Below are positions 2 through 64,000 of a stretch of 64,000 nt of DNA, piece after piece (the stretch's first letter is position 1; the number at the start of each line of letters is the position of its first letter). The stretch is from Actinocatenispora rupis (GTDB taxonomy: Bacteria; Actinomycetota; Actinomycetes; Mycobacteriales; Micromonosporaceae): the NCBI RefSeq assembly GCF_016861975.1, contig NZ_BOMB01000024.1:186001-250000 (forward strand), written 5' to 3'. The notes below the pieces were generated by a model, which saw only the letters and a list, made by a program, of their open reading frames with translations, made no database searches and had not been told where the DNA came from. The position numbers were made by a program, and so were the translations under genes.

Positions 2-1243
2 GCTCCGCCGCGTCCCGCGCTGCCGAAGAACCCGGCCCGCCCGGCCGCACCGGCGCGTTCTACCACGCCGAAGCCGACGACCACGGCTGCCGCCGCCCCG
101 ACGGCGGTGGCCGACGAGCCGATCACCGTGCCGGACGAGGTCCAGCGAATCCTCGACGACATCGCCCAGATCGGTGGCCCGGTCGAAGACGCACGCAACG
201 TCGTTCTCCGCCGGTACCGTGAGGCGTTCGCCAAGCAGGTCGAGGGCGAGCGCAAGCACTGGTGGAACGAGCGGCTGAGCCAACTCGGCGAGGACACGTC
301 GCCGAGCCAGCCGGACAGCGCTGCGGAAGGCGAGCTGGCCGAGCACCTCGCGTCGGACGCGATCCATGGCCGCTTGGCGCGGCAGGCCGTTGCGCCGGTC
401 GAGGCATGGATCCGTCGGGTGCGTTCGAAGGCTGCCGACCCGGCTGACTTCGTCGCCCGCGTTGCCGGCAACGGCCAGGCTCCGTCTCCCACGCCCGGGC
501 AGGTCGTCGCGCGATCGGTTGCTACGCCGCCGCGTCCGGCCGCTCCGTCCCGTCCGGCGACACCGGTGCTCTCGGCGGGCCCGTTCACGGCGGCAATGCT
601 GCCCGCAGAGGTTCGCGCGGTCGTCGACGAGTTCGAGCGGAGCGACAACCAGCCCGCTGTCGTCGAGGCCGCCACGGCCGCCGTGGTCAACAGGTTCCGC
701 TCGGCGTACGAGGAGGCCGTTGCAACGCTGCGCACCGCGAAGGCGCGGGAGTACGTCGCCCAAGGCAAGGGCGAGCCTGAAGCCGAGCGGGAGGCGGACG
801 AGTTCGTCGGGACCGCGCCGGGACGGTCGATCGCCACCGAGCAGGCGGTGGCCCGGACGAACTTCTGGATGAGGCAGACCAGGGTCAGGGCGCACGCCGA
901 CAACGCCGACATCACCCTGCGCGTTGCGGAGTTGCACGTTCGCGAGCAATGGCTGGAGGACGCGAACACCAGCGTCGGCTGGGTCGTTTCCCGGATGGTG
1001 CTCACCCCGCACCAGCAACGGCTCGCGCGCTACCTCGCTGGCCGGGAGATCCGGTTCGCAACCGTCAGGTCCGTCATGAACCGGGTACTTGCCGAGAACC
1101 CGGAGTTCGAGGGCATCGGCGGGCACAAGTGGCGGCAGACGGCGCAGGAGCTTGAGGACTACCTGGGCAACGTGCCGCCGGAGTACTACCTCGGACGCAC
1201 GGCCGACGGTCAGCCCATGACCGATGAGCAGATCGACGACACC
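2..1243 (+). other. Pro/Ala-rich linkers and helical segments
   Basis: This begins inside a Pro/Ala/Thr-rich linker (residues 1-40 of the window). A helical, charged segment follows (about residues 40-155), then a second Pro/Ala-rich linker (nt 475-580) and a longer helical stretch rich in Glu, Arg and Ala up to about nt 1230. I recognise no catalytic motif. The linker-helix-linker pattern suggests spacers between modules lying further upstream and the nuclease-like segment that follows. Confidence 0.6.
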
Positions 1244-4200
1244 CTCAAGGAGCTGGGAAAGGTCCTCAGCGCCATCGACGGTCTGGGCGGCGAGCTGTAT
1301 CTGGCGTCCCGGCTTGAGGGCATCACCCGCCTCAGCATGGACGTGTCGGCCACGGTGATCCGCAAGGGCGTGCAGCGTGACGTCCGTTCCGAGATCGACG
1401 TCGTGACCGATGACGGTCGGACCTGGCACGAGATGAAGGCGACCTTCATCAGCATCCAGGTCGAGGTGACCGGCGGGCGGATGCGGCTCGCGAACAAGCT
1501 GGCCAACCAGATCACGCGGCAGATGGAGATCGCCTGGCAGAACAAGGTCGACGGCCGGCCGCCACAGATCGTTCTGCACTTCCCGCGTGGTGTGCATCCC
1601 GTGGCGCTCGTCGAGCTGGAGGCGCTGCGGATCAAGGACGAGAACGGCGTCGAGATCCCGGACTTCGCCGTGCGGGTCGAGGGTCTGCCGCGGATCTACA
1701 TGTCGCTGCCGAACCTGGACGCCGCGGTGCCGGGGCGGGAGAGCGCGGCCGAGATCGTCGCGAACACGCTGAGGCGGGTGGGCCGCGACGTCCCGCCGAA
1801 TCTCGACGAGCTGTACCCGGAGCCGACCGGCGGCGCGGCCGTCTCCCCGGATGGACGGGAGCTGCTCGCCGGCGAACCCGCTGTCCAGCACGTACGCGAG
1901 GTCGCCAGGCGGGTTCCGGCGGGCTGGTCGTTGCACGCGCCCGGTTCGCAGGAGGCGGAGTTCGCGGCGGCGATCCCGGCCGTGCCGGGGGAGCGGAGCA
2001 TCACGTTCCACCACCAGGACGGCCTGGTACTGGTGGGGAACGCGTGGGTGCCCGCTGCGGACGCCTTCCGTGGCATGAAGGCCGTGCTGGACGAGGAGAT
2101 CCGGACCAGCGCCGACCTGACGCCGGAGACGGCCCGGGTGTCGCTCACGGCGAGCTGCGACTCGGCAGACCTCCTGCACCTCGCGGGCGACACGCTGGGG
2201 GTCGCGGTCGGCGGCGCCTCGACGACGTCGTGGCTCGGCTCCGACGGTCAGGTCGTCATCTCGTCGGTCGACCCGATGTCGGACACCATGGCGCCCAGCT
2301 TCCCCGCCGACGGGTACGAGATCTGGCGGGAGCCGTCGGGCGAGGTCTCTGCGAGGCCGACGCAGCAGCCCCGGGACGCCGCAACCGTGCGGTGGGCCCG
2401 GCTGGGTGGTACGGACGGGATCGACCGGCGGCAGTTCCTGCGGTGGACGGCGGCGGTGGCGGCGACCGCCGCCGCGGCGGAGCTGGTGGGCGGCGACCAG
2501 GGCGGCCCGCAGCCGCCGGGAGACTTCTACGGCAAGCACGGCATTCCGCCGAAGGCCGCAGCGAAGCCCGTGTCGGAGCCGCGTTCGCGGGAGAAGTCGG
2601 TCGGCCCGCGGGGTCTGGTGGCGGACAACTTCCGGCTGAAGTACCGGGAGACTCCGGCGGCGGACGCGCTGTGGAAGGCGTTGCCGGACAAGGCGAAGTT
2701 GCCGGCGGACGCGGGCAAGGCGGTCGCCAAGGTCCTGTCGGGCGCGAAGGAGCACGCGACGCCGACCGCGCACGGCTGGCACTGGCCGCACTCGGTCGGC
2801 GCGGACCACGGTCGGTACCCGCAGGGCGTCGCAACCAGCGTCAACGCGTCGCCCGACGGCACGTTCGGCGGCAAGCGCGTCGTCGGCGTCACCTGGTACT
2901 CGAAGCATCCGAGCAAGACCGTCGGCAGCGAGCTGACCCTGGTCGACTACTCGGATCCGAAGAAGCCGCTGCCGTACGAGGACCTGCTGCTGGTCGAGCC
3001 GTTCGTGGACGCGAAGGGGCACGCGAGCTTCCGCACGATCGACGTGCACGCCGGCGGTCTGGAGATCTACGGCAACCTGGCCTACGTGCCGGTCACCGGC
3101 AGCGGCTTCCGGATCTTCGACCTCAGCAAGATCGTGCGGGTCGAGGACGGTCCGAACGTCGGCCGGCAGAAGGACGGGTCGTACACCGCGGCGGGCTACA
3201 AGCACGTGCTCGTCGAGACGGCGCGGTACGAGTCGTCCGCCGTCAACGCGTACAAGAAGCTGCGGTTCAGCGCGGTGTCGGCGGCGATGACGGAGTCGGG
3301 CCCGGCGCTGGTGGTCCCCGAGTACGACGAGCACGGCCAGGGCAACCGGGTCGTGCTGTTCCCGCTCGGCGCGAGCTGGGGCGACCAGCTGCGGGCGTCG
3401 GCGGACGGCTACGTGCACGGTTCCGACGCCTGGGAAGTCAGCGTGCAGAGCGTGCAGGGCGCCGCGTTCGTCGACGGCAAGGTGCTGCTGTCGTGCAGCG
3501 ACGGTGAGCACCGCAAGGGCTACATCTGGACGTTCGACCCGCACCACGACCGCATGCCGGTCCGGCCGAAGGACCGTTCGCCGTGGGTCGGCGAGGAGGA
3601 CTTCGCGCTCGGCTGGGACAACGCCCTCTGGACCCTCGCCGAGCACCCGAACCAGCGTCAGGTCGCGCACATCCCGCTGACCGACGTGCTCGGTGGCAAG
3701 TGGCGGCCCACCTCGCCGATCACCGCCGGCGCACCCACCAGGCCGGCGCCCGCGCGCCAGCATCACCCGGCGCCGAAGAAGCCGGGCACCGCGGCACCCC
3801 GCGACCGCCGTTCGGCCTCGCACGCCGTGGTCGGCGGGATCCTCGGCATGCTCGGGCTCGGCGGTACCCGCCGTGGCGGCCTCCTCGCCCGGCTGTTCGG
3901 CGGCTCCGGCAGCACGCAACCCACCGAACCCGAGACGCCGACGCCGACGACCGAGGCGCACGTCTGGTACCCGCGGGACATGCAACCGATCGCCGACGCG
4001 GTCGACCTCGTGCCCGGCTGGCACGCCGAGGGCACGGGCTACGGTCACCTGCACGCGGTGCACGAGAGCGGCGAGCGGGTCTGGATCCGCGAGTACTCCC
4101 GCGGCGAGCACCGGTACGAGCTCGGCGAGCGCTGGTCGACCGAGCCGGTGCTGAACCGCGAGACCGAGGCCGATCCGTGGCTGACCAAGACGTGGCGCCG

Positions 4201-7200
4201 GACGCTGGTCGTCAACGACCACCACCTCGCCGACCGGGGGACCCTGGAGCGGCTGCTGCGCCGAGGTCTGGCCGCCGCGGAGCCTGCTGAGGCAACCGGT
4301 GCCGACGCGCCGGCGCTCGGCCCGCACGGCGCGGGCGGCGAGCCCACCGTCGACGACCTGCGCCTGCTGTACGACCTGAACCTGCTGGTCCAGGAGTACC
4401 GGGGAACGCACGCCGACCATGCCGCGGGCATCAACTCGGAGCTGGCGTGGCTGCGCCCCCGGATCCTCCGCCCCGCCGGCGAGCCGGGCGCCGCTGCGCA
4501 GCGCGAACTCGTCGAGCGGTACGTGCCGGGCGCGACCACGGTGCTCGACGCCACGGCCCACTTCGCGTACCCGACGCCGGCGGACCGTGTTGGCGGCGTG
4601 CCGATCGGCACCCCTGTCGAGGTGTCCGACCACCGTCGGCTCTGGACGTTCGAGGTGCCGGCCGAGCTTGCGGAGAAGGTCGCCGCCGGTGACCCGGACG
4701 GTGTGCTCGCACTGACGACCCATGCGCAGCGTCTGATCGAGGCAGCGTCCCGGCTGGAGGACCGGACGCCGCGGATCGAGATCCGCCTGCCCCGGATCGC
4801 CGCCCGGGACGCGCTCGCCATCGAGCACCTGCGCGCCCCGGTCACCGCCGAGGGTGCGGTACGCGCCCGCGTCACGGTGGTCGGTGAGCGCACCTCCGAC
4901 ATGCCGATGCGGGCGGACCGCGCCCCGACGATGGCCGCGGACGACCGCCGGGCGGGCACGCCGTACTTCGAGGGCGACGACCTGGCGCGGACGCTGGTGC
5001 CGCCGAGCCAGGACGGCCTGCTTCGTAGCGCTGACGGTGAGCTCCTGCACGGCAGGTACCTGTACGTGGTGCCGCACGGCACGGACGACCTGCATGCGGC
5101 GCGCGCCGCGGATCTCCGCCCGATCGGGGGGACGCACGCGTCATTCGTGGCCGGTGGACCTGTCGAGGCGTCCGGCGAGTTCTACGCCTACCGCGGGCGC
5201 ATCGTCTGGATCGACGACCACTCCGGTCACTACATGTGGCAGGCGACGGACTCCAGCTGGTTCCTGGACCGGCTGCGGGTGCTGCTGATCGGCCACGGCT
5301 ACGACACCTCCGACCTGTGGTTCCTGGACTTCCGGGGCATGCGGCAGGCTTCCGCCGAACGCGCCGCCGAGATCCTCGGCGCCGCGTTGGCCGAGTTGGC
5401 CGTGCCGGGCGAGATCCCGGGCGTCACCGAGCTCAGCCTGGTCGGGCCGCCCGTGCACACCACGTCGCCCAGCGACCTGCCCGTGGCCTGGGTTCGGGTG
5501 TCCACATCGGACGGTCGGACCCTCGTGGTCGACGCGTCCGCCGCGTACCGGTACGCGGGCGCGCAGCTCCGGTCCCGCGGCGCGGACCTGGTGGCCTGGA
5601 CGACCCAGGACATCCTGCGCACCGCGATCGACCAGGCGATGCGGGACAACCTCACCACACCGAAGCTGCCGCACTGGGATCTGCTCGTACCGCGGAATGC
5701 CGACGAGCTCGGCCACCGCGAGGTCGCCCTCAGCCAGATGCTGCCGCGCGTCGTCGGGGCGCTCACCGTGGGCGGCGCCGCCCTGCATGTCGATCGGGTG
5801 ACCCAGGCGCCGAACGAGATCGGCTTCGAGGTCGCGGTCACCGGCGACGGCGCGCCGCTCGGCACGCTGACGTACCAGGTGAGGCGGAATGACGACGAGG
5901 AGATCACGATCGGCCTCGTCGCGTCGACGATCGACGACGCGGGCTGGACGGCCCAGGCGCACACCGAGCTGATGCCGCACCTCGCCACCGGTGCCCGCGC
6001 GACTGTCGCCCCGGGCGTCGTACCGTCCGACAGTGGTGCGGTCGGCCCGGACGGCCTGCCGATGCTGCAGGGTGACGCCGCGGTGGCGCACGTTCGCCAG
6101 GCCGCCGCACGCGGTGTGGTGGAGTCCGGCTGGTCGCTGCACGTCCCGGGCTCGACGGAGGCCCGGTACGCCGCGGCGGTGCCGGCCGAGCCAGGCAAGC
6201 TGGTGATCCACCTGCACCACCGGCAGGACGGCGACCTGGTGCTGGTGTCGGGTGCGTGGGTGCCGTCGGTCGACGCGTTCACGGCGCTGCGATCGCTGCT
6301 GGACGAGGCGGCCGGTGTGCTGCCGTCCGACGTGAAGGTGCGGCTGATCGGTCCGAGCTCGACCGTGCTCGCCAGGACGGCGGCCGACGCCCTCGGTGTC
6401 GAGACGGCCGGCGCCATGGGCACGATGTGGCTCAGTTCCGACGGGATGTACGCGGTCACCGAATCCGACCCCGGGCTGCCCAGCCGTACGGTGCGGCGGT
6501 TCGGCAGCTTCCTCTGGACCTCGCCGCGGGGACCGGCAATGCCGGAGTCCGAGCGCTCGCCGTACCGCCTGGGCAGGGAGCGAACCGGCGAGATCGGCTG
6601 GGTCCGGCTCGGCTCGGCCGGCGCGGACCCGGCGCTGATGGACCCGTCCCGGGCGACGCCGCCCGTCCGGCCGGCGGGCGAGCGGCCGACCCCGGCCGAG
6701 ATACCGACGACCGGGCCGGACGGTACCCGGGTGCTACGGGGCGACGCCGCGGTGGCGCACGTGCGGCGCACCGCCGGGAACGGCCGGGTCGACTCCGGCT
6801 GGTCGCTGCACGCTCCCGGTACGGCCGAGGCCGAGGCGGCCTCGCGGTCCGGCGCGCTGCCCGGCCAGCGGTCGGTCCACGTGCACCACCGGGACGGCCT
6901 GATCCTGGTCGACGGGGTGTGGGTGCCGCCGGTGGAGTTCTTCCTCGGCCTGCGGCCGGTGGTCGACGCCGAGATCGCCGGCAGCGCCGACCTGACACGG
7001 GAAACCGCGCGTGTCTTCGTCGCGGGTTGTGACAGCGCGGGTCTGGTCGGTCTCGGTCGCGAGATGCTGGACGTCGCCGTCGGCGGTACGTCGGACCTGG
7101 GCTGGATCAGCGCCCTCACCGGCGAGGTCGTCGTGTCGGCGGTCGATCCCGCGTCGGAGAGCATGTTGCCCGACGTGACCGGCCACGTCGTGTGGCAGGA

Positions 7201-10200
7201 CCGGTCCGGAGCGGAGACGACCGCACCGAGTGCCGTGCCGTCGGAGCCGGCGCAACAGACCTGGGTCCAGCTCGACACGCCGCAGCAGCCGGCCGAGATC
7301 GAGCGTTGGCTGCCGACGGACGAGGCGGACGCGCAGACGCGCAGAGCCGAGATCGCGGCGGCCTTGGCGCCCCTGTTCACCGAGGAGATCGACGGGCGGT
7401 CGGTGACCCCGGTGGACTTCCGGCCGGGCCCGGGCCGAGTGACGGTGTTCAGCGAGATCCGCAAGGACGGCGAGCGGATCGGCCGGACCGAGGACGAGAT
7501 CCGGTGGATCGCGGACGGGTCGGGCGTCGAGATCCACCACCACGACATCCGCCTGAACGATGCCGAGCAGGGGCACGGCTTCGGAACCCGCCGGATGCGT
7601 AACCTGCATGTCAAGGCGCGGGCGCTGGGCATCGTGCGCGGCAGCCTCAACGCCGCCGACCGGGGCGCGTACAGCTGGGCGCGGTACGGCTACGACTTCG
7701 CCACTCCGGAGATCGCTCAAGGGGTGATCGGCCGGTTCACGCAGCGCGCGAACGAGTACGCGGAGCAGATCTGGCGGATGCGGCAGTGGGCCGAGGGCCG
7801 GCTGTCCGCCAGCGACGCGGCAGCGTACCGCCAGGTCTTCCAGGAGACGTACGGCGAGGAGGCCGATCCTCAGAAGGTCATCCTCGGCATGACGCACGAG
7901 TGGGTCGCCCTGACACGCGCGCTCAGCGAGGAGCCGACCGCGGAGCGGCTCGCTGCGGTCGACCGGCACGAGGGCGAGCGGAAGACCACCCACCGGCTGG
8001 CGAAGGACACCCTCCTCGAAGAGCCCTGGGAAGGCACGTTCGACTTCCGGAAGCTCGACCAGCCGGCGCCGGGCGACACCGGTACGTCCGAGGCCGCACC
8101 GAAGCCCGCCCCGGACAAGCCGTTCCTGATCGCGCTGGCCGAGGCGCTGGCCGAAGACGACCCGTACGACGGGGAGCCGGAGCCGGTCGGCGACACGCCG
8201 TACGTGAAGGTCGTGAAGTTCAAGACCGGCCTCCGCGCGATCCACAAGGACTACGGGATCCCCGACGACCTGGACCGGGACGAGCTCGCGGCGAAGGCCG
8301 CGAGGGTGTTCGACAGCCCGGGCGTGCCGGTGCACCGCATCAGCGAGACCGAGGCGTACCAGGAGTTGGCGGAGGGCGTCGACCCGAACGAGGAGCATCC
8401 CGACGGCGACTTCGTGCGGCACGGCTACCACCGGACCACGGCTGGCCGCAACCAGGGTGTTCTCGACCTCGTCCTCGGTGTGCTGGACCGGGAGTCGAAC
8501 TGGGTCGTCGAGAAGGGTGCCGGCGAGCACGACGTCGTCCCCGAGAACACCAGGATCCAGTCGTACGACAGCGTCAACGTCCTCGACTGGGACGTGATGT
8601 GGCTGCGCGACAACCCGTTCGTGGCCAGTCTCATCGAGGTCGTCGGCCCGAACGAGGTCGTGTTCCGGCCGAACGACCTGACCCCGGAGTACGTCGAGCA
8701 GGTGCAGCGGGGACTGGAGGAGGAGCTGCGGCCGGAGATCGAGCGGCTGCGCGGCCCCCAGGCGTACGAGACGGCCATGTGGTGGTGGAACGGCCTCAAG
8801 GCGAACGCGCAGGGCGCCGCCGGCCAGACCGCCCGTGAGGCGATGACCGACGTCGTCGCCGAGCACTTCCCCGAGGTGCTGCAGGTCGGCAACGTCTACA
8901 CCACCAAGGGCAGTGCGACCGCGGTCCTCGACGTACAGGTCGACGAGGAACTGGACCCGACGGCCGACCCGGTCGTCGCGCTGGAACCGTACCGGATCTC
9001 GGTCCGGATCCCGCGGCCGGACGGCGACGCGTGGAGCCCGGACCAGTTGCGCGCCCGGCTCGCCGCCGTCCTGGCCGGTCGGATCCACGAGGGTCTCGAA
9101 CTGTGGCGCACCCGCGGCGAGGTCGTCGACCAGGCACCCCGTGCCCGCCGGGAAGGCCAGATCCGCGAGATCCTGGAGCTGGACCGACAGTTGCAGGGCG
9201 GCGAGACGGACCCGCAGCTTCAGTTCTGGCGGCTGGACCGGATGGCCAAGCTGGCGAAGGACGCCGACCCGGAGCATCGTGGTCGGTTGCTGGAGCTGAT
9301 CCGGGGTGGCCAGTTCCCGCAGGCGTCCGGCCAGCTCGCCGACATCCTGGACTGGGCCGGCAACGTCGACCGCCAGCTCGACGACAGCACACCGCGCGTC
9401 CTGCCGATGGTGATCACGCGCGACTTCCGGCCGTACGGCCCGTCGTGGAACGTCTCGCCGTACCTGGCGGACGTGCTCGACCTGATCGCCGACCCCGAGC
9501 ACTACGTGCAGTCCGGGCGGCCGATCCCGCAGGTCGACCCGGACTTCGCGGCGAGGCCGTGGCCGGCCGGCACCATCGAGCAGATCGTCGGAACCGTGCT
9601 CGGCCGTCCGGTCGCCGAGCGGCCGCAGCAGGATGGTGCCGCCGCCTGGCCGTTCCGGGACCCGGCCGGGAGCATGCCGGACATCCCGGGGTCGTCGACC
9701 ACGCCGACGTCGTACCGTCCGGTTACCGATCCGTCCGGCGTGGACCCGTCGCTGTGGCCGTTCGGGTCGCCGGTGGCCCGCGATACGGCGACCGCGCCGA
9801 CGGAGCCCACCAGGCCCGGCGGGGTCGCGCCGCGCGACCCGGCCACTGTCACACCGCCGGCCCGGCACCCGGCGGCGGACGAGCTCGAGGGGCTCGCCAA
9901 CCAGCTCCGTGCCGCCCGCGGCGACGACTACTGGCGGGTCAAGCAGCAGATCGCCGACCTCATCCGGCGGTACGGCCTGACCGACCTGAACAACTGGCAG
10001 GCGTTGCTGCGCGGCTCGGACCCGATCGCGGCCGGCGACCTGTCCTGGGTTCTCACCGACCTGTTCGGCGCGGACGTCGAGGCGCTCTTCCCGCGGTCCG
10101 ACGGGTCGGCGCCGCCGCCGATGCCGGCCGGCGTGCTGCCCTCGGTGTACGTCACGATCCGCGGTCTGTCCGAGGCGTTGATGCCGCCGTCCGACGGGGG

Positions 10201-43200: not shown

Positions 43201-46200
43201 CGAGGTGCTGCTCGGATCGCGAGACGCGGACGAACTGCACTGGCTGGCCGGCCTGTTGCGCGAGACGGCGGGGCTCGACCTCGGCGCGGTCCTCGCCGTA
43301 CCGGCGGACCGGGACCACACCGGGCACTACGCCTCGTGGGGTGCCGACGGCCCGGAGGGTTGGCGCGACAACGGCCTGACGGCGCAGGACATCCAGCTGC
43401 TGCGCTGGCATCTCGGTGGGCTGCGCGACCAGTTCGTACAGCGCGGCAATGCCGCGGCGCACGACGCGATGATGGCGCGCGTCGAGGCGCTCGCGGCGCA
43501 CGCCACGGGGACGGGTGAGTCGCTGGTCCTGTCCGACCGCGAGGCCGCCGACTGGATCGCGCACAACCGGCACGAGACGCGCGCCGGGGCCGGGCGGGCG
43601 CTGGCGTTCTACCACCAGAGCGATCCGAGGCTGATCGACGCGCAGCGGGTCCGACCGTTCGTCGGCGAGCTGGACGGGCGCCGGCTCGTGGTCGTCGACG
43701 TACCGGTGGTCCGGGACTGGACGGGCGCCGGCGGCAAGCTGCGGACCGGGGAACCGTGGCTGGACGTCGCCGGGATGCCGGTGACGCGCGAGCAGTTCGT
43801 GGCGGCGACCGACTGGGACCTGACCCGGACGTACGTCATCGCCGGCTGCACCGTGGACGAGCTGGACCTCGGCGCGGCCGCCCAGGTACGTACGATCGCG
43901 CCGACCGAGCTGGTCTTCAACAGCGAGTTCGCGCCGCCAGGCTCGGGCATCGAGGGCACCGGCCTGCTGGTCAGCAGCAGCGTCGACGCGACCGACGCGT
44001 ACGGGCGGCCGGCGTTCCCGTTCACCGGCGCCTGGGTGTACCGGGACGAGGTCGGAACCGAGCTGGACCGGTGGGACGGCGTGCTGCTGCCGGACCTCAC
44101 CGAGCCGACGTCCGATCCGGCGCCCGAGCTGCCGGTGGACGAGCCCGCGCGCCACCGGGCCCGTTCGGTCGACGTCTCGAAGTGGACCGGCGGCAACGGC
44201 ATCGAACCGCCGACGGTCAAGACGCTGGACATCGCGGGCGGCCGGCCGTCCGCGGTCGGCGAGCTGACCTTCGGCGTACGGACCGGGCAGGGTGACCGCG
44301 ACTACCAGCAGGACGCGGCGCTGACCGGCCCGGTGGCGGGCGTCGCCGACGGCCTCGGCGGTGAGGTCGCGGGTGACGTGTCCTCCCGTCTCACGGTCAC
44401 GACGCTGGCCGACCACGCTTCCGCCGGCGCCCGTCCGGTGGACCTCTTCGAGGGGGTCGTCGCAGCCAAGGGCGAGCTGCTCGCACAAGCGCCGGAGGGT
44501 TCGGCGACGACGCTGGTCGCCGGAGTGGTCCACCGCGGTGTGCTATCCGTCGTCAACATCGGTGACTCCCGCGCGTACCTGGTGCGGGAGGGCGAACCGG
44601 AGGCGATCCAGCTCACCGATGACCAGGAGGACGAGTGGGGGTACCTGGAGCAGACGCTCTCCGGCCCCGGTCGGATCGACCGTCCGGTCACGCCGCAGCT
44701 GGTCACGGTGGACCTGCGGCCCTCCGACGTCGTGCTGTACGTCAGCGACGGTGTCTTCCAACCCCTGCCCGACGGCCGCCCGGTGCTGACCCGCCGGGAA
44801 CTGGCCGAGCTCGTCCGGTTGGCGGGTAGCCCGCAGGCCGCCGCGGACCGGATCCACGACGTCGTACGCGAACGGATCGCGCCGTACGGCAACGGCGACA
44901 ACGTCACGGTGGTCGTCGCCTGGGTCGGCCGGGCCGGCGAGCCGGTGCAGGGTCTGCGTACCACGATCAGGGTGCTGCCGGACGGCACGGCAGACGCGGC
45001 CGGGCTCCCGTCCGCCGAGCTGGACGCCGTGGTGCGGGACCGCACAGAGCCGGCGCCGCTGCCCGTCGGTGACCTGGCCGTGGCGCGGAAGCGGGCCGCG
45101 CTTCTCGACGCCCTGCTGTCGGTCGACCGTGCGGACACCGTCGAGTTCGGTCGCCGCGCCGAGGAGCTGTTCGACTTCGCCGACCTACAGGGCACCGCGT
45201 ACGCGTGGGTGATGGACGACAGTCCGTACCACCGTGCCCTGTCGCGCGACTACGTCAAGCTGACCGAGCTGTTGGACCGCCCGGCCGGCGAGATCGAGCC
45301 AAGCGCGGTGATCCGCCGCCACAACCGCATCATCTGGTTGGAGGAGCAGGCCGGCCGGCTCGGCTACGACGTGTCGTTGCCCGCGCACGACGACCTGGAT
45401 TCCACATCGGACGGACGTGAGACGCCCGCCGAGACCGGCGATCCGGCGGGGAACAAGTCCCCGGTACCCGGTGCGGGCTCCCCGTCCGTCGCCGAGCAGC
45501 GGACCGGCGACGACCAGCGGTCGGCGGAGACCGCGGCTTCCGTGGCGAGCACCCGAGGCGATGCGGGGCAGGGCCGGAAGTCGGTGGCCGACCTGCGGCG
45601 CATGGTTGCCGCGGCCAGCGCCGAGGTCGGGACGGGGCTGACCGACTACCAGCTCGACCGGTTCGGCGTGGTGCCGCCGACCGGCAAGTACCGCGTGAGC
45701 CTCGTCGACCAGTCGCCGGGCGGGGGCGTGCCGGCCTCCGCGGTGCAGGTCCGGCAGGGCCGTCGGGACTCGATGCAGGACTCCGCGTTCGCGGGTCGGC
45801 AGCTCGCCGTCGCGGCCGACGGCGTGGCCGGGCGCGCGCACGGCGCGTTGGCCAGCGCGGTGGCCAGCCTCGCGCTCGCGGACCTGGACGACCAGCAGCT
45901 GACCGCGGCCGGGGCGGACGCCGCGCTGCTGAACCGCGTCGCCGTGGCCAAGTTCGCGCTCGAACGTCTCGCCGACGAGCTGGGCGTCAGCAGCGTGGGT
46001 ACGACGCTGGCGGCGATGCTGTTCACCGAGGGGCAGTTCACCGGGGTACGGATCGGCGACGCGAGGGTCTTCCTGCTCCGCGACGGTGAACTGTTCGACC
46101 TGAGCGGCCAGTACCAGACGGCCGGGGCCCTCGTGGCGATGCTGTCCAACGACACGGCCGCCACCCCGGAACTGGTCTCCGGCCCGTACCGGCCGGGCGA

Positions 46201-49200
46201 CCGCTTCCTGATCGCCAGCGACGGTCTGCCGACGCTGCCCCGCGACAAGGCCCGGGCCGACGAGACCGTCATCGCGCGCATCCTCACCACCACACCGGAC
46301 CGGCAGGTCGCCGCCGAGCGGCTGGTGAACGCGGCCCTGAGTACCAACGACGACAACAAGTCCGTCATCGTCGTCGACATCACCGAGAACGGCGACGCGG
46401 CCAGCAGCGGCCCGGTCCTGGCACTCCCCACCGAGACCACGACGCCGGCCGGCGACCCGCTGCCCGTCGAGGACGTCATCCGGATCCGGCACGGCGCCCC
46501 GGCGCTGGACATCGCCTACGTGTCGGAGTGGCGCGCGGCCCTGTTCTCGGAGCTCACCGATCGCGCGAGCGGGAGCCAGGTGCGCCTTCCGTTCCGTGCC
46601 CTCGCCCTGGTACGACTGGCCGCGGAGCGGGCGGACGTGCATGCCCGGTTGGCGGCGGGCGGTGTCGCGGGGGCTGCGACGCACGCGGAGCTGGCCGACG
46701 CGTACCTGGAGCTGGGCAAAGCGGCCGCGGAGAACGCGGATCCGGACTCGGAGACCCAGGAGCGCGGGGAGCTTCGCCGCTTCACCGACGCCAACCGCCG
46801 GGTTGCCGAGCTGGAAGGGCGCCTCATCGGGGAGGACCCGCGGGTCACCGGTGAGTGGAACGACGTGGAGCCGCCCCCGCTCGTCGAGGTGATCGGCTCG
46901 GCGCAACGGTTCTGCGCGAAGTGCGGGACGAAGGGGCTGCCCGGCGAACCGTGCGCATCGCCAACCTGCGACCACGCCCTGCCCGCGCACGAGTTCCCCG
47001 ACCGGATCAGCCGGTCCGTGGGGAACGTCGCGGCGGTGACCGACCGGGGCCGTACGAAGCGGAGCAACCAGGACGCGTTCGCGATCGCGCCGAACGTCGC
47101 GGTGGTGTGCGACGGCGTGAGCACCGCGTACATGGCGGACCGCGTCGCGCGGGCGGCGTCCATGGCGGGCGGCGTCGATCTGGCGCGGCGGTTGGCGTCC
47201 GGTGAGACGGCCGAGGATGCGAGCCGTGCTGCGGTCGAGGCGGCCCGCCGCGCGGTGTCGCGCAGCGTCGGCGGCGCCGACGGGGTCACGACGTACGTGT
47301 CCGCCGCGATCGTCGGCGACAAGGTCCGGGTCAGGTGGCGCGGTGACAGTCCCGCGATCTGGGTCCCGGCGGACGGCTCGCCGGCCATCCTGCTCACCGA
47401 CCCGCTGGTGGCACCGAGGACGACATCCGGGGGGCTCGGCCGCGGCGACGACGGCACCGAGCTGAACACGTACGAGATGACGATGCCGGGGCCCGGCTGG
47501 GTCATGGTCTGCAGCGACGGCCTCGACATGAACCGGTCCTACCCGCAGGCGGACCAGGTGGCCGAGGCGATCGCCTTCGCGTCGGCCGAGGTTCGGGCCG
47601 ACCCGGCGCGACTGGCGGAGCACCTCACCCAGGCCGCACACGACGCGGGCGGTTTCGACAACATCACCGTCGCGGTCATGGCGTACGATCCGGCTGCACC
47701 GGTCGCCGGCCTGCCTTCCGCTGCCGCGTCCCTGGCTCCCGAGCCGGCGTCGCCGGACACGCCGGAGGAGGCCGAGGCGCCGGGCCAGGCGCGCGAGCCG
47801 CGGTCCCCGTCGACCGGCACGGACGGTGCGCGCGGGCCTGACGAGCGGCCACGGCCGCGTGTGGTGCCCGCGGAGGTCCTGCGGGCGCAGGACACGGCGC
47901 GATCAATGTACGGCGAGGCGGCGCTGGACTTCGCTGCCGTCGTGGCGGAGCGCGAAGGGCGGTACGACAGGTACGAGGGTGCCGCCGGCAACGGCGCGCC
48001 GCGCGCCGACCTGTACGAGTTTGCGGAGCTGCGCGCCGCCGTGCACCAGACGCTGGCGGCGGGCTACGTGGGCGGCAGCGTGCACGCCCGGCTGGCCGGG
48101 GCGTACGAGGACTTGGCCTTCGCGCTGGAGCCGGGTGGCCACCTCCCGTTGCCGTCGACGGTTCGCCACATCTACGAGCAGATCGCCGGCTTGGAGGCGC
48201 AGCTGGTCGCCGACGCGTCGGCCGATCCGGCCACCGCACCTGCGCCGCGGGAGGTGCCGGCTCCTGCAACCCGCCGGGGCCGCGCGGCCGGCCCGGTCCG
48301 TCGTACCTTCCCGCGGGAGGCGGTGGAGCGGCAGCGGGAGGTGGCCGCCGCACGGCGCGAGGCGGAACGCGCGGCGCTGCTGATGTACGGCCCCGACGCG
48401 TTGGACGTCCGCGCTGCCGCGGGGCGTCGTGTCCAGCTCCACGAGGCGTTCGAGCGGGCGCGGGCCGCGGGCGCGCCGGCAGAGGCGCTGTCCCGGTTCG
48501 CGAACCAGCGCACCGGTCTGCACGCGCTACTGGCAGCGGGGAACAGGGACGGGCTGCACGCCAGGTTGCAGCGCGCGTACCGCGACCTCGCCGAGGCGAC
48601 CGCACCGATCGATGGCGTCCTCCCGCACCGCTGGACGCTCGACCGAGCGTACGAGCGGGTCGCCGAGCTGGAGGAGGCGCTGCTCGCGCCGTCGCCGATC
48701 GAGGGCTGGGACGAGACCGGCACGTACTCTTCGGCGGAGGTCTTCTGCCCTCGGTGTGGCGCGCCGGCGCTGCCGAAGGAGCGGTGTCTCGTCGCGGAGT
48801 GCGGCGCGACGGTCCCGTCGCAGAGCTATCCGGACCGGATCAGCAACGCGGCGCCGGGGGTCGGTGCGGCCACCGACCGGGGCGTGCGGAGGCCGACCAA
48901 CGACGACTCGTACACGATCGGGCCGAAGCTCACCGTGGTGTCCGACGGCATCTCCGGGGCGAAGCGGTCGAAGTACATCGCGCGGATGGGTGCGATGGTC
49001 GGTGGTGCCAGCTTGGCGCGCCGGCTGGCGGCCGGCGAGCCGGCTGTTGCCGCCGTGCGTGGTGCGGGTCAGGATGCGCGTGCCGCCGTGGCGCGCAGCG
49101 TCGCCGCGGACACCGGTTTCGCGACATACGTGTCGGCCACGACCACGCGGGACGGCGTGGTTGTCGGTTGGGCCGGCAACAGCCTCGCGATGTTCGTTCC

Positions 49201-52200
49201 GCGGGACGGCTCGCCCGGCACGATGCTGACCTTCCCGCACGACCACGCCTGGCATCTGGTCAACAAGCGCGGCATGACCGAGGCGGAGGCAGCCCGGCAC
49301 GCCCGGCACAACATCGTGGCCCGCGGGATCGGCGCTCTGGACGACCGTGAGCCCTTGGCGGTCAGCGAGACGCGACTGTCCACCGCGGGCTGGGTGGTGG
49401 TGTGCAGCAACGGCCTCACCGACCGCTACCCGGAACCGGACGACGTGGCCAGGCTGATCGCCGACGCGCCCGCGGAGGTCCGTGCGGATCCGGAGGCGTT
49501 GGCCAACCACCTCACTCAGGCGGCGCTCGACGAGGGCGGCCACGACAACATCACCGTCACGGTCCTGGAGTACGAGCCGTCGACGCTCGGTACGCCACCG
49601 GCGAAGCCGCGTGCGGCGCGCGGCGCGGCCACCAGGACCGGCACGCCCGCGCCGGCACGTACGAACGAGGCGCCCGCCGCGCCGCCGGCGGAGCCCGAGC
49701 GGCGGTCCGCCGGCAGTGAGGAGCTCGACTTCGCCGCGGTGGCACGGCGTCGGGCGGAGCTGGTGGCGGCGTACGAGTCCTGGCGTTCGGGTGGTCCTGG
49801 TGACGAGTCGGCGCAGTCGACGTTGCACCGGTTCGCTCGCGAACGCGCCGAGGTGCACGGCCGGTTGGCGGCCGGCGACGACCCGGATGGCGTACATGCC
49901 GAGCTCGCCCGTGCGTACGGGAACCTGGCGTTCGGGTCGTCGCCGGTCCGGTTGATCGCCGCGTTCTCGACGATGGTGAATCTGGCCAGGCGGATCGCCG
50001 AGTTGGAACAGCGGCTGGTCGATGCCGAAGCGCGGGCGAGGACCGATCGCCCGGCCCGGACGACGTCGGTCAGTTCGGCGCAGCGGTACTGCCCCCTGTG
50101 CGGGAAGCCCGGGCTGCCGGACGAGCAGTGTGTCGCCGACGGCTGCAACCAGACGCTGAGCCCGTACGAGTTCCCCGACCGGATCAGCAAATTCGCGGGG
50201 AACGTCGGTGCCGCGACCGACCGGGGGAGCAGCAGGAGCCGACCGGTCAACGAGGACGCGTACGGGATCGCGGCGAACGCCGCGGTCGTGACCGACGGCA
50301 TGTCGTCGTTCCCGGATTCGAAGTACGTCGCCCGGAAGGCGGCGATGGGCGGCAGTGCCGGGCTGGCGCGGCGGCTGGCGGCCGGTGAGTCGGGTCGCGA
50401 GGCGGTGCTGGGCTCGGGAGACGACGCCCGCGAGGCGGTGGCGACCAGCTTCGCGCGGTTCAGCGGTGCTGCCAGCTATGTCGCGGCTGCGATCGTTCGT
50501 GACGTGCTGACGGTGGGTTGGGCCGGTGGCAGCCCGGCGATGTGGCTGCCCAAGGATGGCTCACCGGGGGAGTTGCTCACCTTCCCGCACAACGAGGAGT
50601 GGGACCTCGTCACATCCCGCGGCAAGTCCCCCGAGCAGGCGCGCATGCTGGCCGATCCCCATCGCGTGATACGCGGGCTCGGCGCGGGCGACGGCGAGTC
50701 GCCGCTGACCGTCCGGCAGAAGAGCCTGCCCGGTGCCGGGTGGGTCATCGTGTGCAGCGACGGTTTCACCAGGTACTACCCGGATCCGGCCGCGGTGGCG
50801 GCGTTGATCGCCGATGCGCCGGCCGAGGTGCGCGCCGGCGCGGAGTCGTTGGCCAACTACCTGACCCAGAAGGCGCGCGACGCCGGCGGTGCCGACAACA
50901 TCACCGTCGCGGTCATCGACCACCAGCCGACGGAGCCGGAGCTGCTGCCGGACGCCGAGGCGACGGAGACGATCCGCCGGTACGCGGAGCGCACCCCGGC
51001 CGGCTGGCACCTGTACGGCAAGCCCGGCGACCCGCGGTACCCGGCCACGCGCAGCACGACCACCGTGTACGACCGGGAGCTGCGCGATCTCGCCCACCGG
51101 GTGGAGCCGCTCAACAACGGCATGCAGGTCGTCGACGGTGTCACCCGCAACGGGTACTTCTGGATCGACGGCCAGGCGTTCACCGGTGCGCAGGTGGCTG
51201 CCGCGCTGCCGTTGCAGGCGGGCACGACCTACGTCCTGACCGGCTGCCACGCCTACTCGCCCCGGAGCGGCCGGTCCGTGGCGTCCGAGTTCGCCGCCGC
51301 CGGTCGGGTGCGCACCGTCGCCACCACCACCTTCGTGTACAACGGCGACCTGGTCGGTCAGCCGGGCACGCTGCTGGCCGCGGACATCGACCAGACCGAC
51401 GAGTACGGACGGCCGACCCGTCCGGTCGGCGCCGACTGGGTCGTGCTCGACACGATGGGCCGGCCTGTCGGCGCGACCCGCGGCCACGGCGTGCTCGACT
51501 CGACCGAGCGCTGGCTGCCGTTCCCGGTCGAGGTGCAGCCCAGGTTCCTCCGCCACCGCGGCGCCGACGACCCACCGGCGCGCGACCCCCTGGACCGCCG
51601 CGCACTGCGGCATGCGTCGTACCAGATCCGGGGCGGCCTCACGCTCGAAGGACGAGACGTCCACGCGCGGGAGCACATCGAGCGGCAGGTCCCGTTCGAG
51701 ATGGGCGAGCTGGCGCTGGTCGTCGAGGCGAATGCCGACGGCGTCGAGCTCTATTCCAGCGGTCGCCCCAACCACTACTCCTACACACCCGGCCGGACGG
51801 TTCCCGCCGCGGTCCTGTCGGAGTCGATCCGGCTGGATCACCCGGGCCTGCTCGACGACAAGACCGCGATCCGGGTACACACGCGTCGTGGGGCCGCCTC
51901 CGGTGAGGAGACGTGGGCGCTGTTGGCCCGCGAGACGGGGCTCGACGTGTGGGTCACGGAGGGGTCGTCGCCGGTCTACCCGGAAGGGAGAATCGGTCAG
52001 CCGATCTGGAGCCGGTACGCGGGCGGCACCGGTGTCAAGACACCGGGAACGGACCAAAAGGTGCCGGTCGCGGAGCGGGTCGCGCTGATCGTCGACGAGA
52101 TCGTGGCGCGCGACCTGTGGCATCGGGTGGACGCCGGCTTCGCGCTGTGCGCAGCGGACCATCCGCGGCTGCGTCACTACCGAATGATGGAGAAGCGTCC

Positions 52201-55200
52201 CGGTCTGACGCTGCTCGCCATCGTCAGCGCCGGCGACAACGGCGAGTCCGTCGACGGCAAGCCGGTGGTGCTGGACGAGCCGCTGAGCGGCGCCGAGCTG
52301 AGCGCGGTGCTGGACGAGTTGGCGCGTCGCAACCTGTTCCCGGAGCGGCCCGAGGCGATCGTGCTGGAGGCGCACCAGACCGCGATGTTCGGCCCGCCCA
52401 CGTTCGCGGAGGATCTCGCCAGGGTCCACAACGTGCATGTCTTCGGTCCGGTGGGCTCCGTCAGGCGGACCGGACCGGAAACCCTGGAGGTGGTACGCCG
52501 GAGCGAGACGGGGGAGTGGCAGCAGGCGCCGGCGAACGAGTGGTGGCGCGAGTACCTGCCAGGTGGTGAGCTGGTCGACAGTCAGCCGACCCATCCGTGG
52601 GGTGCGCCACCGGAGTCCGATGACCAGCCGGACCCCGGCGAGTCGCGGGACGACGGCGTCGGCATCAGCATCACGGTGGAGCGCGATCCCGAGGACGTCA
52701 CCGAGGAAGAGGAACTGCACCGGGGACTGCTGGAGTTCGTCACCGCGAACGCGCGCGCCGACGGGCAGTTCAACACGGATGGGCCGCTGCTCTCGCTGGT
52801 CCATTCCTGGATGCCGGCGGTCCAGCCGGACGATGATCAGTTCGGCATCGCGATCGAGGCGGACGAGTACGGCTTCGTCGCGTTCGGTCGCCGGCTCAGC
52901 CTGCGCGAGACCGCGGCGGTGCTGGCGTACGAGGTGGGTGAAGGGGCACGTCTGAGGCTGTACGTCCGGCATGCCGGAACGGCGGACACCGACCTGGCCT
53001 GGCTGCCGGCAGCCGCGGACTACCTGGCGGCGCAGGCGGGCATCGAGCTGCTGGTACCACGCGGACCACTGGTGGCCGACGCAGACAGCGCGTCCGGCGC
53101 GGCGACCGCCCTGGCGGTCCGGATCGGTGTCCGTGGCGACGGCGCGCCCATGACCGTGCCGGTGTCGGCGGCTGAGGCGTGGTCGACCCACCTGCCGGCG
53201 GGGCGCGCGGCGCGGCCGGCCACCCGGCCTCGCCCGGTTGCCCGGCCGGATGAGCCGCCGCTCTGGAACTTCGTGCATCCGGTATGGCGTTTCCTGACCG
53301 AGGTCGCTCCCGGGTACGCGCTGTTCCACGACGCGGACCGGTTGGCCGCGGCCAACCGGGTGCAGGCCTGGCCACGCGAGGTGGCCCTGTTCGCGGACAC
53401 CGACGTCCAGGGCAACCTGGTGATCGGCGGCCGCGGGATACGGCTGAACCACGCCGTGGCCGAGCTTCGCGAGCTGGCTGAAGCGTCCGTGATCGACCTG
53501 CCGGACAACACACCAGAGTCCGAGGGCGGCCTCCTCCGTCTGTACGTGTCGGAGGCCGGTTCCGGCCAGCAGCCGCTGGCCGCCGTCCTCGCGCGCTTCC
53601 TGGGCACCGACGTCGCCGGGCTGGTTGGCGATCTGCGGATCGTCGACGGTGCGTACGTGGTCGTCCAGCACGCCGGCGGACGCGAGGTGACGCTGCCGAT
53701 CGAAGCCCCAGAGGCGTGGCGGATCTTCGTCGGTGGCGTCGGTGTCGAGAGCCAGGCCGCCTCCGCCGCGGCCCAGACCGCGCAGTACGCCCGGGACCAT
53801 GCCTGGTCGGTGCCGAACGGGCTGGTGCTGGCGCACGAGGACGACCCGCGGGTGACCCGGTGGCGCGCGCTCGCCGAGTCCGTCGACGGGACGGTGCTCG
53901 GTGTCGACGTGTCCGACGACGGCACCGCCTTCGAGGTCGCGGGCGTACGGGTCGGAGGCGGTACCGAGCTGGCGGTGCTGCTGCGGGCACTGGAACGACA
54001 GGGGATCGTGGCGCTGCGCGACCGGCTCGTCGTCGTGGTCGGGCGCCCGTCGGCCGGCGACGGGCGGCTGTTCCGCGAGCTCGCCCGCGGCCTGGGGATG
54101 TCGGTCGTGTCGGTGGTCGGCGACCACCACGGGTACGACCTGACGGCGCCCGACTGGACGCCGCCGGACACCGGCGCGTACCGCCGGGTGTTCGACGCCG
54201 ACGGTGTCGAGGTGCTGGACATCGCGGCCGGGCCCGCGCTGCCGGGTCTGCTCACGGACCTTGCCGAGGAATATCAGCTGGCGTGGGGCGCGGGTGTCGA
54301 TGCGGCGGCCGGGCACGCGGCCGCGGACGCGGTGACCGAGCGGTACCGGCTGCTCGACGTGGACCGTGACGGGGCCGGGCAGTTGTCGGCGACGGATCAC
54401 CGGCTCGGCGACGGCGCCTGGCTCGCCACGACGGCAGCCGACGCGGAGCGGGCCGACCAGGCGCGGATCGCCGTGCTCGACCGGGCGCTCGCCCTGTTCG
54501 AGGCGGCCGCGGCGGCGGCCCGGCGGGACGGCGAGCACACGCGCGCGTTCGAATACGAGCGGGCCGCCGCGCTGTGGCGCGAGCTGCACCAGGCGGGCGA
54601 CCGGGAGCGCGCGTGGCAGCGTGCGGCGATGCGGGCGGCGGTGCTGCGCTGGACCGCGCGGGCCGCGCTGGAGAGCGGGACGGACCGCGCGGCGTACTGG
54701 CAGGGCGTGGCGTTTCGGGCCGAGGCGGCCGGCGCGCACGCCAACCGGTTGGCCGTCGGGTACGGGGCGCGGCGCGCGGAGCTGCTGCGGCACCTGGGTG
54801 ACGATCCGCTGGCGGCGCCGAGCAGGGTCGGTGACGCGCAGGCGGCCGTGCTCGCGGCGCTGGACGACGTGGCCACCGCCGAGGCGGCGGCCATGCACCG
54901 CGCGGAGACCGACCAGACATACCGGGAGGGCGACGCGCGGGTCTGGTGCCACCGCCTGCTGCTGGACCTGTCCCGGGCCGCCGACACCGACGTACCTGGG
55001 CTGCGCTCGGCGATGCACGGGGCGTTCCGGCAGCTGAGGCCGGAGCGGGTGACCCGGCTGTTCGAGTATGTCCGCGGTGCCCGGGCGTACGAGCGCGGCG
55101 ACGAGCGGGTCGAGCCGGAGGTCGACGTCGCGGTCCGCGCGATGTTGGCGGCGGTCGGCCTGCACGCCACCGACGTGGACCGGACCGAGGACGAGTGGCT

Positions 55201-58200
55201 GGACGAGGCGCGACGGTGGTGGGCCGAGGCCGACTTCCCGGCGGAGCTGCCGGCCGGCGGCCCGGGCGCGGTTACGGTCGCGACGCCGCCCGTCCCGGCC
55301 GACGACACCGGCTCCGTACCGGTGCTCGACGCGGTGCGGGACGTGTTCGGCAGCGAGCTGATGGTCCGGCACGGCGTACTCAACGCCCAGGACGTGCGGT
55401 TCGTCGAGACCGACCGCGGGCAGCTGCTGGAGGTTCGGACGATCGACGGGCGGTGGCTGACGTTCGCCCTGGTCGTCGGCGACGTACCCGGCGGCGCGTC
55501 GGCGCGGTTCGAGCCGACGCCGGACGATTCGGTGGACGGCTCGGTCGTGCTGGCCGCGCGGTACGACTCGGCGGTCGCGGTGGGCGCCACGCTGGCCGGC
55601 GCGGTCGCGGCCGGCATCGCGCAGTTCGCCGGCACCGCCGGCCACCTGCGTCGTCCGTACGTGCGCCGGTCGGTGGCCTTGGACCTGACGCCAGCGACCG
55701 TCGTACGGCTGGCGCAGCTGGCGCACGTGGGCGTCGCGTACCGGCGTGCTCTGGCGTTCGGCGCGGACATCGACGAGCAGGGCCGGCTGGCCGAGACGAT
55801 CCGGCGGCTCGCCGCCGAGCTGGGCGTCGACTGGCTGCCCGCGCACGTCGCGCACCGGCGCGGGCTGGTCTCGCCGGACCCGGTGGAGCTGGCGACGGAC
55901 CAGTGGGACGGCGTCCGGCCGTACCGGGCGGACGAGCTGGACGCGGCCCGGCTGACGCTGCGCGACGGGCACTTCACGTACTGGGCGGAGCCGGCGCGCA
56001 GCTTCGATTCCCGGCTCGCTGACCCGAGCGGACGAGCCCGCGTCGAGCTCGGAGCGGACGGGCACTGGTACGTCCTCGCGCCCGACCGGTCGACGGGCGA
56101 GGTGTACCAGGCGCGGGCGAGCGTCGAGGTGCACGCCGGTGAACTCGTGGCGATCGAGGTCGAGGACGGCCCGCTGGCACCCGTCGCCGGCATCGTGTTC
56201 GACCGGCTGGCGGTGGGCGGGGTGCACCGTGCCTACCGCGCCACGGTGCGTGCCGCGCATCCGGACGGTACGACGCACGTCGATCCGCTGGACCCGGCCC
56301 GAGTCGCTGCCGCGGTCGACGCGGTGCACCGGGCGGTGGACAGGCTGGCGCTGGCGGTGCAGGCAGGCATCGCGCATCCGGCGCTCGCCACGGTCGAGGG
56401 CGTCGGGGACCAGCAGATCCAGCTCGGCCTGCACGACGCGGGCACGGTGCGGATCGACGCGTACGCGCCGGTGCCAGGGATGGCGGTCCGTGACCTGACC
56501 CGCGACGATCTGGACCGGGCGGCGACGGCTTGGCTGGAGCGCAGCGTCTCCGCCGCCGTCAACCGGGCCCGGCACGACACCCCGGCCGACCCGGTACGCA
56601 TCGGCTCGTCGCCCAACACCGGCGACCTGCTCGACATGGTGCACCGGGTGCTGATGTCGAGGGACCCGGCGTGGCGCGTGCGTCGCGCGGGCCGCGACGT
56701 GGTCATCAGCCGGCCCGGCGCCCGTTCCATCACGCTGCGTCTCGCGATGGTCGGGCTCGGGGACGACGAGGTGTCCCGGTCCCACTCGACCGAGCCGCTC
56801 GTCACCGGCACCGCCCGGTCCGCGGTCGTACTCGTCCATGAGGCGCTGGTCGGCGAGCCCGACCTGCTGCGCACGCTGATCGACCGGGTGCTGCTGTTCC
56901 ACCAGGTCGAGACGGAGCTGCACAGCCTGCCCGGCCGCGGGCTCGGCCGGCTGTACGACCCGACCGCGCTGCCGCGCGACGACGAGCAGCTCCTCGGCCG
57001 GGGATACACGAGGCGTACCGCGGTCGAGGAGCGCGCGCTGCGCGACCTGCGGCTGCTCGTGAAGCGGTACCGCGGTGCGGCGCCCGGCCGCCGCGCGGGC
57101 CACGCGGTCGAGATCCAGGAATGGACCCGCCGTTGGCTGACCGAGCTGCCCAACGGCTGGAGCGCCCGGCGCTACGGGATGTGGCACGCCTACGTTCTGG
57201 ACCAGGTGCCGGAATACCGCGCGGTCCTCGACGAGGTCCGTGGGCTGCAGCGGCCGGATCCGGTCACCCGTGAGCCGCGCGTGTTGCTGTCCCGCGACGA
57301 GGCACTGTCGTGGGTGGGTGAGCACGCCCAGGTGACGGCCTCCGGCCTGTCGTTCCACGAGGCGGGGTCCGACGACGGCCGCTTCGCGGCGGCGGTGCCG
57401 TTCACGCGCGGCGAGCGGACGCTGGACATCCATTACCAGGACGGGCTGGTCCAGGTCGCCGGCGCCTGGGTGACGCCGGCCGACTTCTTCGCCGCGGTGC
57501 GCCCGCTGGTCGACGGGATGATCGACGAGGGCGGCGACCTGACCCGGCGTACGGCGAAGGTCCGGCTGATCGCCTGCCACGGCGCCGAACTGCTCGACCT
57601 CGCCGTACGGGAGCTGCGGGTCACGGTCGGCGGCGCGAGTGACTACGCGTTCACCAGCGAGCTCGGTGACGTGACGGTCGCCGACCTGTTCCAGGCCGGT
57701 GACACGATGCTGCCCGGCACGCCGGGTCACTGGGTGTGGCGCGACCCGGACGACCACGAGTGGGTGCAGCCGTCCACGCAGCACCCGGACCCGGCCGCGA
57801 CGACCTGGCTGCCCCGTGGGCCCGGCGCGGACACGTCCGGCGGCGGGCGGCCGGTGATGGACGGGTACGTCCTGGTCGACGACTCCGGACCGGGCGACGG
57901 TGTGTGGCGGGATCCGGACGGCCGGCTGTTCCGGGTCGTCGCGCCGCCCGATCCGCGCGTCGCCCGCATGATGGTCCTGCGCAGCCGGCTGTACCGGGAG
58001 TTCGGCGAGGACGCCGAGCGCGCCGAACTGCTCGACCTGAACGGGCACTTCGGCGACCGTCAGCTCGGCGTACGGACGTGGATCGACGAACCGGCCGCCC
58101 CCGGCGAGGCGGATCCGCGACGGCAGGTGGGCGAGAGCCTGCCCGTCCATGCGTTGCTGGACAACCCGGGCGCGCTCCGGGACCGGTCCGGGTCGGTGCT

Positions 58201-64000: not shown

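Follow-up and report, generated by a model that had tools for sequence, protein, structure and literature searches.

The 64,000 nucleotides considered here (hereafter the window) are bases 186001-250000 of contig C24 (NZ_BOMB01000024.1; 301,726 bases) of the actinomycete Actinocatenispora rupis. They lie wholly inside one gene of 39,571 codons, which closes a locus of the type VII secretion system (T7SS, or ESX) and whose product has a mass of 4.24 MDa (counted from three codons before the best ATG). It is probable, all evidence considered, that this terminal substrate gene encodes an ESX-exported, self-processing protein resembling the polymorphic toxins. An earlier note, made from the letters of the window, had described a single frame running past both window ends and a protein of more than 2 MDa without signatures of polyketide synthases (PKS) or nonribosomal peptide synthetases (NRPS); all of this stands, whereas the identity of the protein, as the product of the terminal gene of a T7SS locus with toxin-like domains, had been missed.

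The open frame is one real gene. Across its 21,333 codons in the window, forward frame 2 is free of stops, where its position-specific composition predicts about 245, and the other five frames hold between 17 and 402; among 20 simulated sequences of 64 kb (first-order Markov), no open run in any of the three forward frames exceeded 614 codons. Extension along the contig, which the earlier note had proposed as the way to reach start and stop, gave a stop-to-stop frame at C24:165392-284137 (39,582 codons, 118.7 kb), and the 175,726 bases read around it contain no N. The likeliest start is the ATG at C24:165425, with GGGAGGTG a few bases 5' of it (by eye), and the gene from this ATG occupies C24:165425-284140 (39,571 codons and a stop). 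GC content is 73.6% in the window and 92.8% at the third codon position (GC3), and GC3 exceeds the value at both other positions in 1,960 of 1,974 intervals of 100 codons. All 12 internal pairs of paralogous modules show their best similarity in the giant's frame, although this test is biased towards that frame because similarity of the in-frame proteins had served to choose the pairs. Exact direct repeats inside the gene reach 48 bases at most, making collapse of repeats during assembly unlikely. Long open frames also occur on the minus strand of the window, such as 27263-36151 (2,963 codons) and 36155-44542 (2,796 codons); they arise from codon bias, since TTA, CTA and TCA are rare in the giant gene (38 in all). 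An argument from TTA codons was dropped, because 0 of 3,705 Leu codons in the giant against 1 of 2,174 in its neighbours is no real difference. At an ordinary translation rate of 10-20 residues per second, one whole chain would take 33-66 minutes to make.

The claim that this protein is among the largest in bacteria holds, but it is not a record, as lengths of up to 85,800 aa are reported for giant proteins of Omnitrophota and their PVC relatives (PMC12057145). The main groups of huge bacterial proteins are described as NRPS and PKS enzymes, followed by surface proteins (PMC11573180). Pfam matches at E ≤ 0.01 in eight pieces spanning the whole protein include no ketosynthase, acyltransferase, adenylation, condensation or carrier domain, and a PKS/NRPS megasynthase is rejected on that ground; nor do they include lethal-factor or ADP-ribosyltransferase families. 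Four of the eight pieces have no Pfam family at this threshold, and most of the chain is without an assigned family.

By its N-terminal domain, its locus and the motif of a partner, the giant is a putative type VII secretion substrate. The N-terminal module matches WXG100_2 (PF25547) at E=0.0028, below the curated cut-off; in an alignment of 16 related N-termini this family was matched in all 16 members at E ≤ 0.1, PPE in nine and WXG100 in eight, and one Trp is invariant across the 16 rows. The locus upstream (genes called by a simple script, families assigned with Pfam) includes an EccC with three FtsK stretches and ends with two small genes directly before the giant. One of these encodes a protein of 121 aa in which a WG pair and a YxxxD motif were read by eye; it has no match in Pfam or NCBIfam, so the label Esx-like is given to it for these two motifs only. 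In the giant's own sequence, inspection by eye revealed no YxxxD/E motif where one is usually found. Export of CpnT of Mycobacterium tuberculosis needs a YxxxD-type motif and two Esx proteins encoded upstream (PMC8092274). As described in the literature, CpnT with EsxE and EsxF (PMC8092274; PMC7810871) shares with the giant a helical ESX-type N-terminal module, two small upstream partners and a C-terminal enzyme, but CpnT migrates as a band of 100 kDa and has a single toxin domain, while the giant, at 4.24 MDa, carries many modules as well as repeats of protease-like type, and one of its partners is YbaB-like.

Relatives of the giant's N-terminal 500 residues occur in 42 of the 354 family genomes searched (13 of 44 genera), and the module in 35 of 394 genomes of the class, own genome included in both counts. 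Open frames at the matches of the family scan range from 236 to 39,582 codons, and the longest at those of the class scan other than the own, taken without a check for N, has 12,978. The second longest in the family scan (G350:C81) is another giant T7SS-type frame, with 15,374 codons free of N, just six Cys and, towards its end, two calpain-like stretches. Few of the giant's inner modules are common to the relatives fetched. Among four genomes of the genus, a single-sequence search with the N-terminus found the own genome only; the profile of the N-terminal alignment, searched in a small local set, matched the N-terminus of a giant in one of them, G002 (E=8.3e-19).

Self-comparison of the giant revealed many duplicated modules, among them one dispersed domain family, of which nine copies were found first, 26 and 27 at E<1e-3 with two iterated profiles, and 28 at a looser listing threshold. 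The profiles were iterated inside one protein and could have drifted, but the controls argue against this: at E<1e-3 no copy was found in the reversed protein or in five local shuffles, and at E<0.05 the reversed protein gave one match with one of the two profiles. A confident structure model of one copy was most similar to the protease domains with which the toxins TcdA, TcdB and MARTX process themselves, and its eight best structural matches are all cysteine protease domains (CPD) of family C80, at 9-12% identity; that a structural family is absent from these matches is no evidence against it. From this model, the repeated domain is predicted to have a Clan CD fold of CPD-like type. Nine of nine copies tried had no Pfam match at E ≤ 10 with filters on, and the domain is therefore called CPD-like and not C80. 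Its likeness to the toxin CPDs lies in the predicted fold, in a His preceding the Cys and in its embedding in a large multi-domain chain. TcdA, TcdB and MARTX toxins carry one CPD each; the giant differs from them in its 28 copies, as well as in the low identity and the lack of a Pfam match.

The Cys is kept in 18 of the 28 copies. Twelve copies keep a His-Cys pair, with the His 42-55 residues before the Cys in a fitting context (by eye). For the copies with Cys 3544 and Cys 4319, the His was assigned by spacing and an HG pair, as the alignment puts it in another column, while the copies with Cys 23944 and Cys 32639, whose His lies 50 and 41 residues earlier in a different context, were left out of the 12. 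Only 60 Cys occur in the whole chain: 18 at the CPD-like column, 12 in zinc-ribbon-like motifs, four in phosphatase domains, two in the deamidase-like and calpain-like domains and 24 elsewhere. That 18 of 60 fall at one column of so Cys-poor a protein suggests that the CPD-like Cys is under selection. A binomial figure for this concentration was set aside, since the copies lack independence and their Cys had served to pick the column.

Both Peptidase_C2 and Gln_amidase, the latter a family described as a papain-fold toxin, lie within the last 1,000 residues of the giant and are predicted to be C-terminal enzymatic domains of toxin type. Gigantic actinobacterial proteins of more than 10,000 aa, each with several toxin domains, have been described (Zhang et al. 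2012; PMC3482391); their arrays of caspase repeats were thought to yield several cleavage products, and T7SS was named among their export routes. The gene described here is of that kind, sharing the actinobacterial origin, the length above 10,000 aa, several effector domains per chain and repeated protease-like domains, and its size and build are remarkable: it is about 2.9 times as long as the longest toxin of that account (39,571 aa versus 13,652 aa for SACTE_5178), and it differs from the giants presented there in its 28 copies of a CPD-like domain (undetected by Pfam in the nine tried), its position at the end of an ESX locus and its effectors (PP2C, Gln_amidase, calpain). No printed report of a comparable T7SS giant beyond that paper was found among the literature titles and abstracts listed. 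The Omnitrophota giants likewise have a very long single bacterial frame and a proposed role as surface or predatory weapons, but they are described with transmembrane helices and carbohydrate-degrading domains, and the available account (PMC12057145) describes no T7SS module or CPD-like array.

The proposed course of events is as follows. The helical N-terminal module would pair with the small upstream partners and dock on EccC, as CpnT needs EsxE and EsxF, and the partner-bound chain would be exported by the adjoining ESX system. Outside, or inside a target cell, the CPD-like domains would cut the chain and free its modules, and the freed enzymes would act on competitors or prey, with SUKH-type immunity encoded nearby. 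The gene itself has grown by internal duplication and, apparently, by in-frame capture of whole genes. The fullest form of this proposal, a polyprotein weapon in which up to 28 CPD-like domains (12 with the His-Cys pair) dismantle an ESX-exported chain of 4.24 MDa, in the manner of a viral polyprotein, into many separate effectors (phosphatases, deamidase-like and protease-like enzymes among them), the whole built by duplication and in-frame capture of entire genes for secreted proteins, is put forward tentatively, as a bolder possibility than the self-processing toxin-like substrate.

Long frames also occur in the same genus. G002, assembled as a single contig, has the same kind of locus with open reading frames (ORFs) of 10,631 and 5,343 aa. 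In G001, an open frame of 11,043 codons or more is cut off by its contig end and lies on a different contig from the T7SS genes; at 62-93% identity, it corresponds to roughly the latter half of the first G002 ORF and to the greater part of the second. Several ORFs occur in G003, of which the longest without N has 4,901 aa; a frame of 16,632 codons there was rejected as evidence because part of that locus reads N, which cannot make stops. Between G001 and G002, dN/dS is 0.36 over 9,908 codons, leaving out the first 5,150 codons and the end of the first G002 ORF, and varies from 0.15 to 0.67 across 40 measured intervals (one of 41 was dropped). Where compared, these sister frames are kept as proteins, yet they are changing fast. 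The Gln_amidase region of the focal gene is matched in all three genomes, and a few other modules are matched at 26-48% in a different order.

Several points weigh against self-processing. Ten of the 28 copies have no Cys and six more have no His at the usual place; a scan of sister giants showed nothing of the repeat array except two weak copies in G002, which lowers confidence both in the self-processing substrate and in the polyprotein weapon; and some caspase repeats in the toxins of PMC3482391 are reported to be without catalytic residues and may be structural. These points favour a real giant T7SS substrate that does not cut itself, in which the CPD-like repeats would be spacers or binding modules of a surface stalk and only the C-terminal enzymes would act. 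Such a stalk nevertheless seems rather unlikely, given the 12 copies with both His and Cys and the share of all Cys residues found at this one column. Less probable still is real DNA that yields several proteins by internal initiation, or a silent locus, decaying or rarely expressed: the 504 in-frame ATG codons could serve as internal starts, more than one ORF spans the related region in G002 and G003, and a stem-loop before the gene might limit transcription into it, but 0 stops in 39,571 codons against about 463 expected, the even GC3 and the purifying selection on the sister genes over the 9,908 codons compared speak against this reading. An assembly artefact fusing unrelated genes or repeats is highly improbable, for although the genome is a draft of 81 contigs, the gene has no N and no longer exact repeat than that given above, chance joins should break the frame somewhere in 118.7 kb, and the single-contig G002 has a 10,631-aa ORF with related modules at the same kind of locus.

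Apart from the CPD-like copies, the chain contains modules of diverse type (Table 1). In the piece of the protein with the three units at 46919-51226, NF033484 (Stp1-type) was matched over its cut-off at E=9.5e-76, in five stretches; these units of zinc-ribbon-like motif and PP2C phosphatase are of a regulatory enzyme type, odd for an exported-looking chain. The region 2624-3679, which follows the first Tat-signal-like peptide, has homologous stretches elsewhere in all four genomes of the genus, the best match outside the giant being 38-41% identical in each, and in three of the four the matched stretch holds one TGA. DUF6528, behind the second Tat-like signal, also occurs in a short standalone gene on a different contig of the own genome, which begins with a Tat-like stretch (by eye). 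In the three sister genomes, the frames that match DUF6528 are longer and regulator-like. These observations support, without proving, in-frame capture of whole genes, two of them probably still with their Tat-like signals. The residue pattern of the three-copy module presumably resembles that of PD-(D/E)XK nucleases, but a nuclease reading is unproven, with no sequence match in the PDB, a best Pfam E of 0.27 to a transposase family and a model confidence (pLDDT) of 56. Three further candidates were set aside: an alpha/beta-hydrolase at 35390-36415, from a motif read by eye only (best Pfam E=0.054, an unrelated family); an ADP-ribosyltransferase-like stretch at about 58853-59410, from a motif only (0 Pfam families); and a kinase-like pair near the C-terminus (best Pfam E=0.41 for the copy tried).

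The gap of 93 bases between the small partner gene and the giant (C24:165332-165424) contains a perfect GC-rich stem-loop of 12 base pairs (z -2.88; two of 200 shuffles as stable), possibly an attenuator or processing site, which might hold the giant's expression at a lower level than that of the partner genes. Downstream of the giant follow a DUF6406 gene, small proteins and a WHH nuclease-SUKH fusion gene (Pfam); one of the small proteins weakly matches a zinc ribbon (E=0.0024, below cut-off). The SUKH domain of the fusion gene is the nearby candidate for immunity but is fused to the nuclease, and no immunity gene fitting the enzymes of the giant was found among its neighbours. At another T7SS locus, a nuclease is reported to be paired with an SMI1/KNR4 immunity protein (PMC11217815). 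Six near-full-length EccC matches lie on six contigs of the own genome (C24, C25, C36, C43, C48 and C49), which may thus have six ESX-type systems.

Table 1. Features of the giant gene and its surroundings; positions are those of the window unless prefixed with C24 (contig positions).
Feature	Position	Strand	Basis
Type VII secretion locus	C24:146565-164210	both strands	EccE, WXG100, EccB, EccD, EccC, second EccE, mycosin-like subtilase
Two small partner genes	C24:164563-165331	+	YbaB-like 136 aa (PF02575); 121-aa protein
WXG100_2/PPE-like N-terminal module, putatively for export	C24:165425-166024	+	PF25547
Giant gene, portion within window	2..64000	+	frame 2, 21,333 codons
Three-copy repeated module	1184..1858	+	invariant E...D...ExK...Q; 43 invariant columns in 3 copies
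CPD-like copy with His and Cys, modelled copy	1880..2395	+	profile, structure model
Embedded Tat-signal-like peptide	2420-2479 (region 2420..3679)	+	PF10518 E=0.00023, just below cut-off
CPD-like copy, Cys lost	6077..6562	+	profile
CPD-like copy with His and Cys	6746..7264	+	profile
CPD-like copy with His and Cys	21296..21835	+	profile
Second embedded Tat-like signal	21965-22024	+	by eye
DUF6528 domain	22265-22978	+	PF20138 E=4.7e-13
CPD-like copy with His and Cys	23339..23890	+	profile
Module recurring once later in gene	35390..36415	+	part matches long frames of G001, G002, G003
CPD-like copy, Cys kept, no His at usual place	37064..37576	+	profile
CPD-like copy, Cys kept, no His at usual place	43541..44071	+	profile
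SpoIIE-type phosphatase domain	44339-44920	+	PF07228 E=2.1e-14
PP2C-type phosphatase domain	45755-46327	+	PF13672 E=1.7e-30
Three successive units of four-Cys zinc-ribbon-like motif and PP2C phosphatase	46919..51226	+	NF033484
CPD-like copy, Cys kept, no His at usual place	50957..51478	+	profile
Three degenerate CPD-like copies without Cys	52109-52537, 53282-53620, 53780-54112 (52109..54112)	+	profile
CPD-like copy with His and Cys	57299..57808	+	profile
Gln_amidase (papain-fold, deamidase-like)	C24:281291-281623	+	PF15644 E=7.8e-7, over cut-off
C-terminal calpain-like Peptidase_C2	C24:283388-283672	+	PF00648 E=8.3e-8, over cut-off
WHH nuclease-SUKH immunity fusion gene	C24:287236-288234	+	WHH PF14414 E=2.8e-11; SUKH PF09346 E=1.1e-10

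The ORFs of G002 (10,631 and 5,343 aa), the frame of at least 11,043 codons in G001 and the 39,571 codons described here form a series in which the growth of giant genes can be studied. If made and exported whole, the product would exceed by a wide margin every type VII substrate known to us; a hard question for models of ESX export would then be how 39,571 residues pass the EccC machine. The dispersed CPD-like domains, in turn, allow the idea of a bacterial polyprotein strategy to be tested directly on individually expressed domains.
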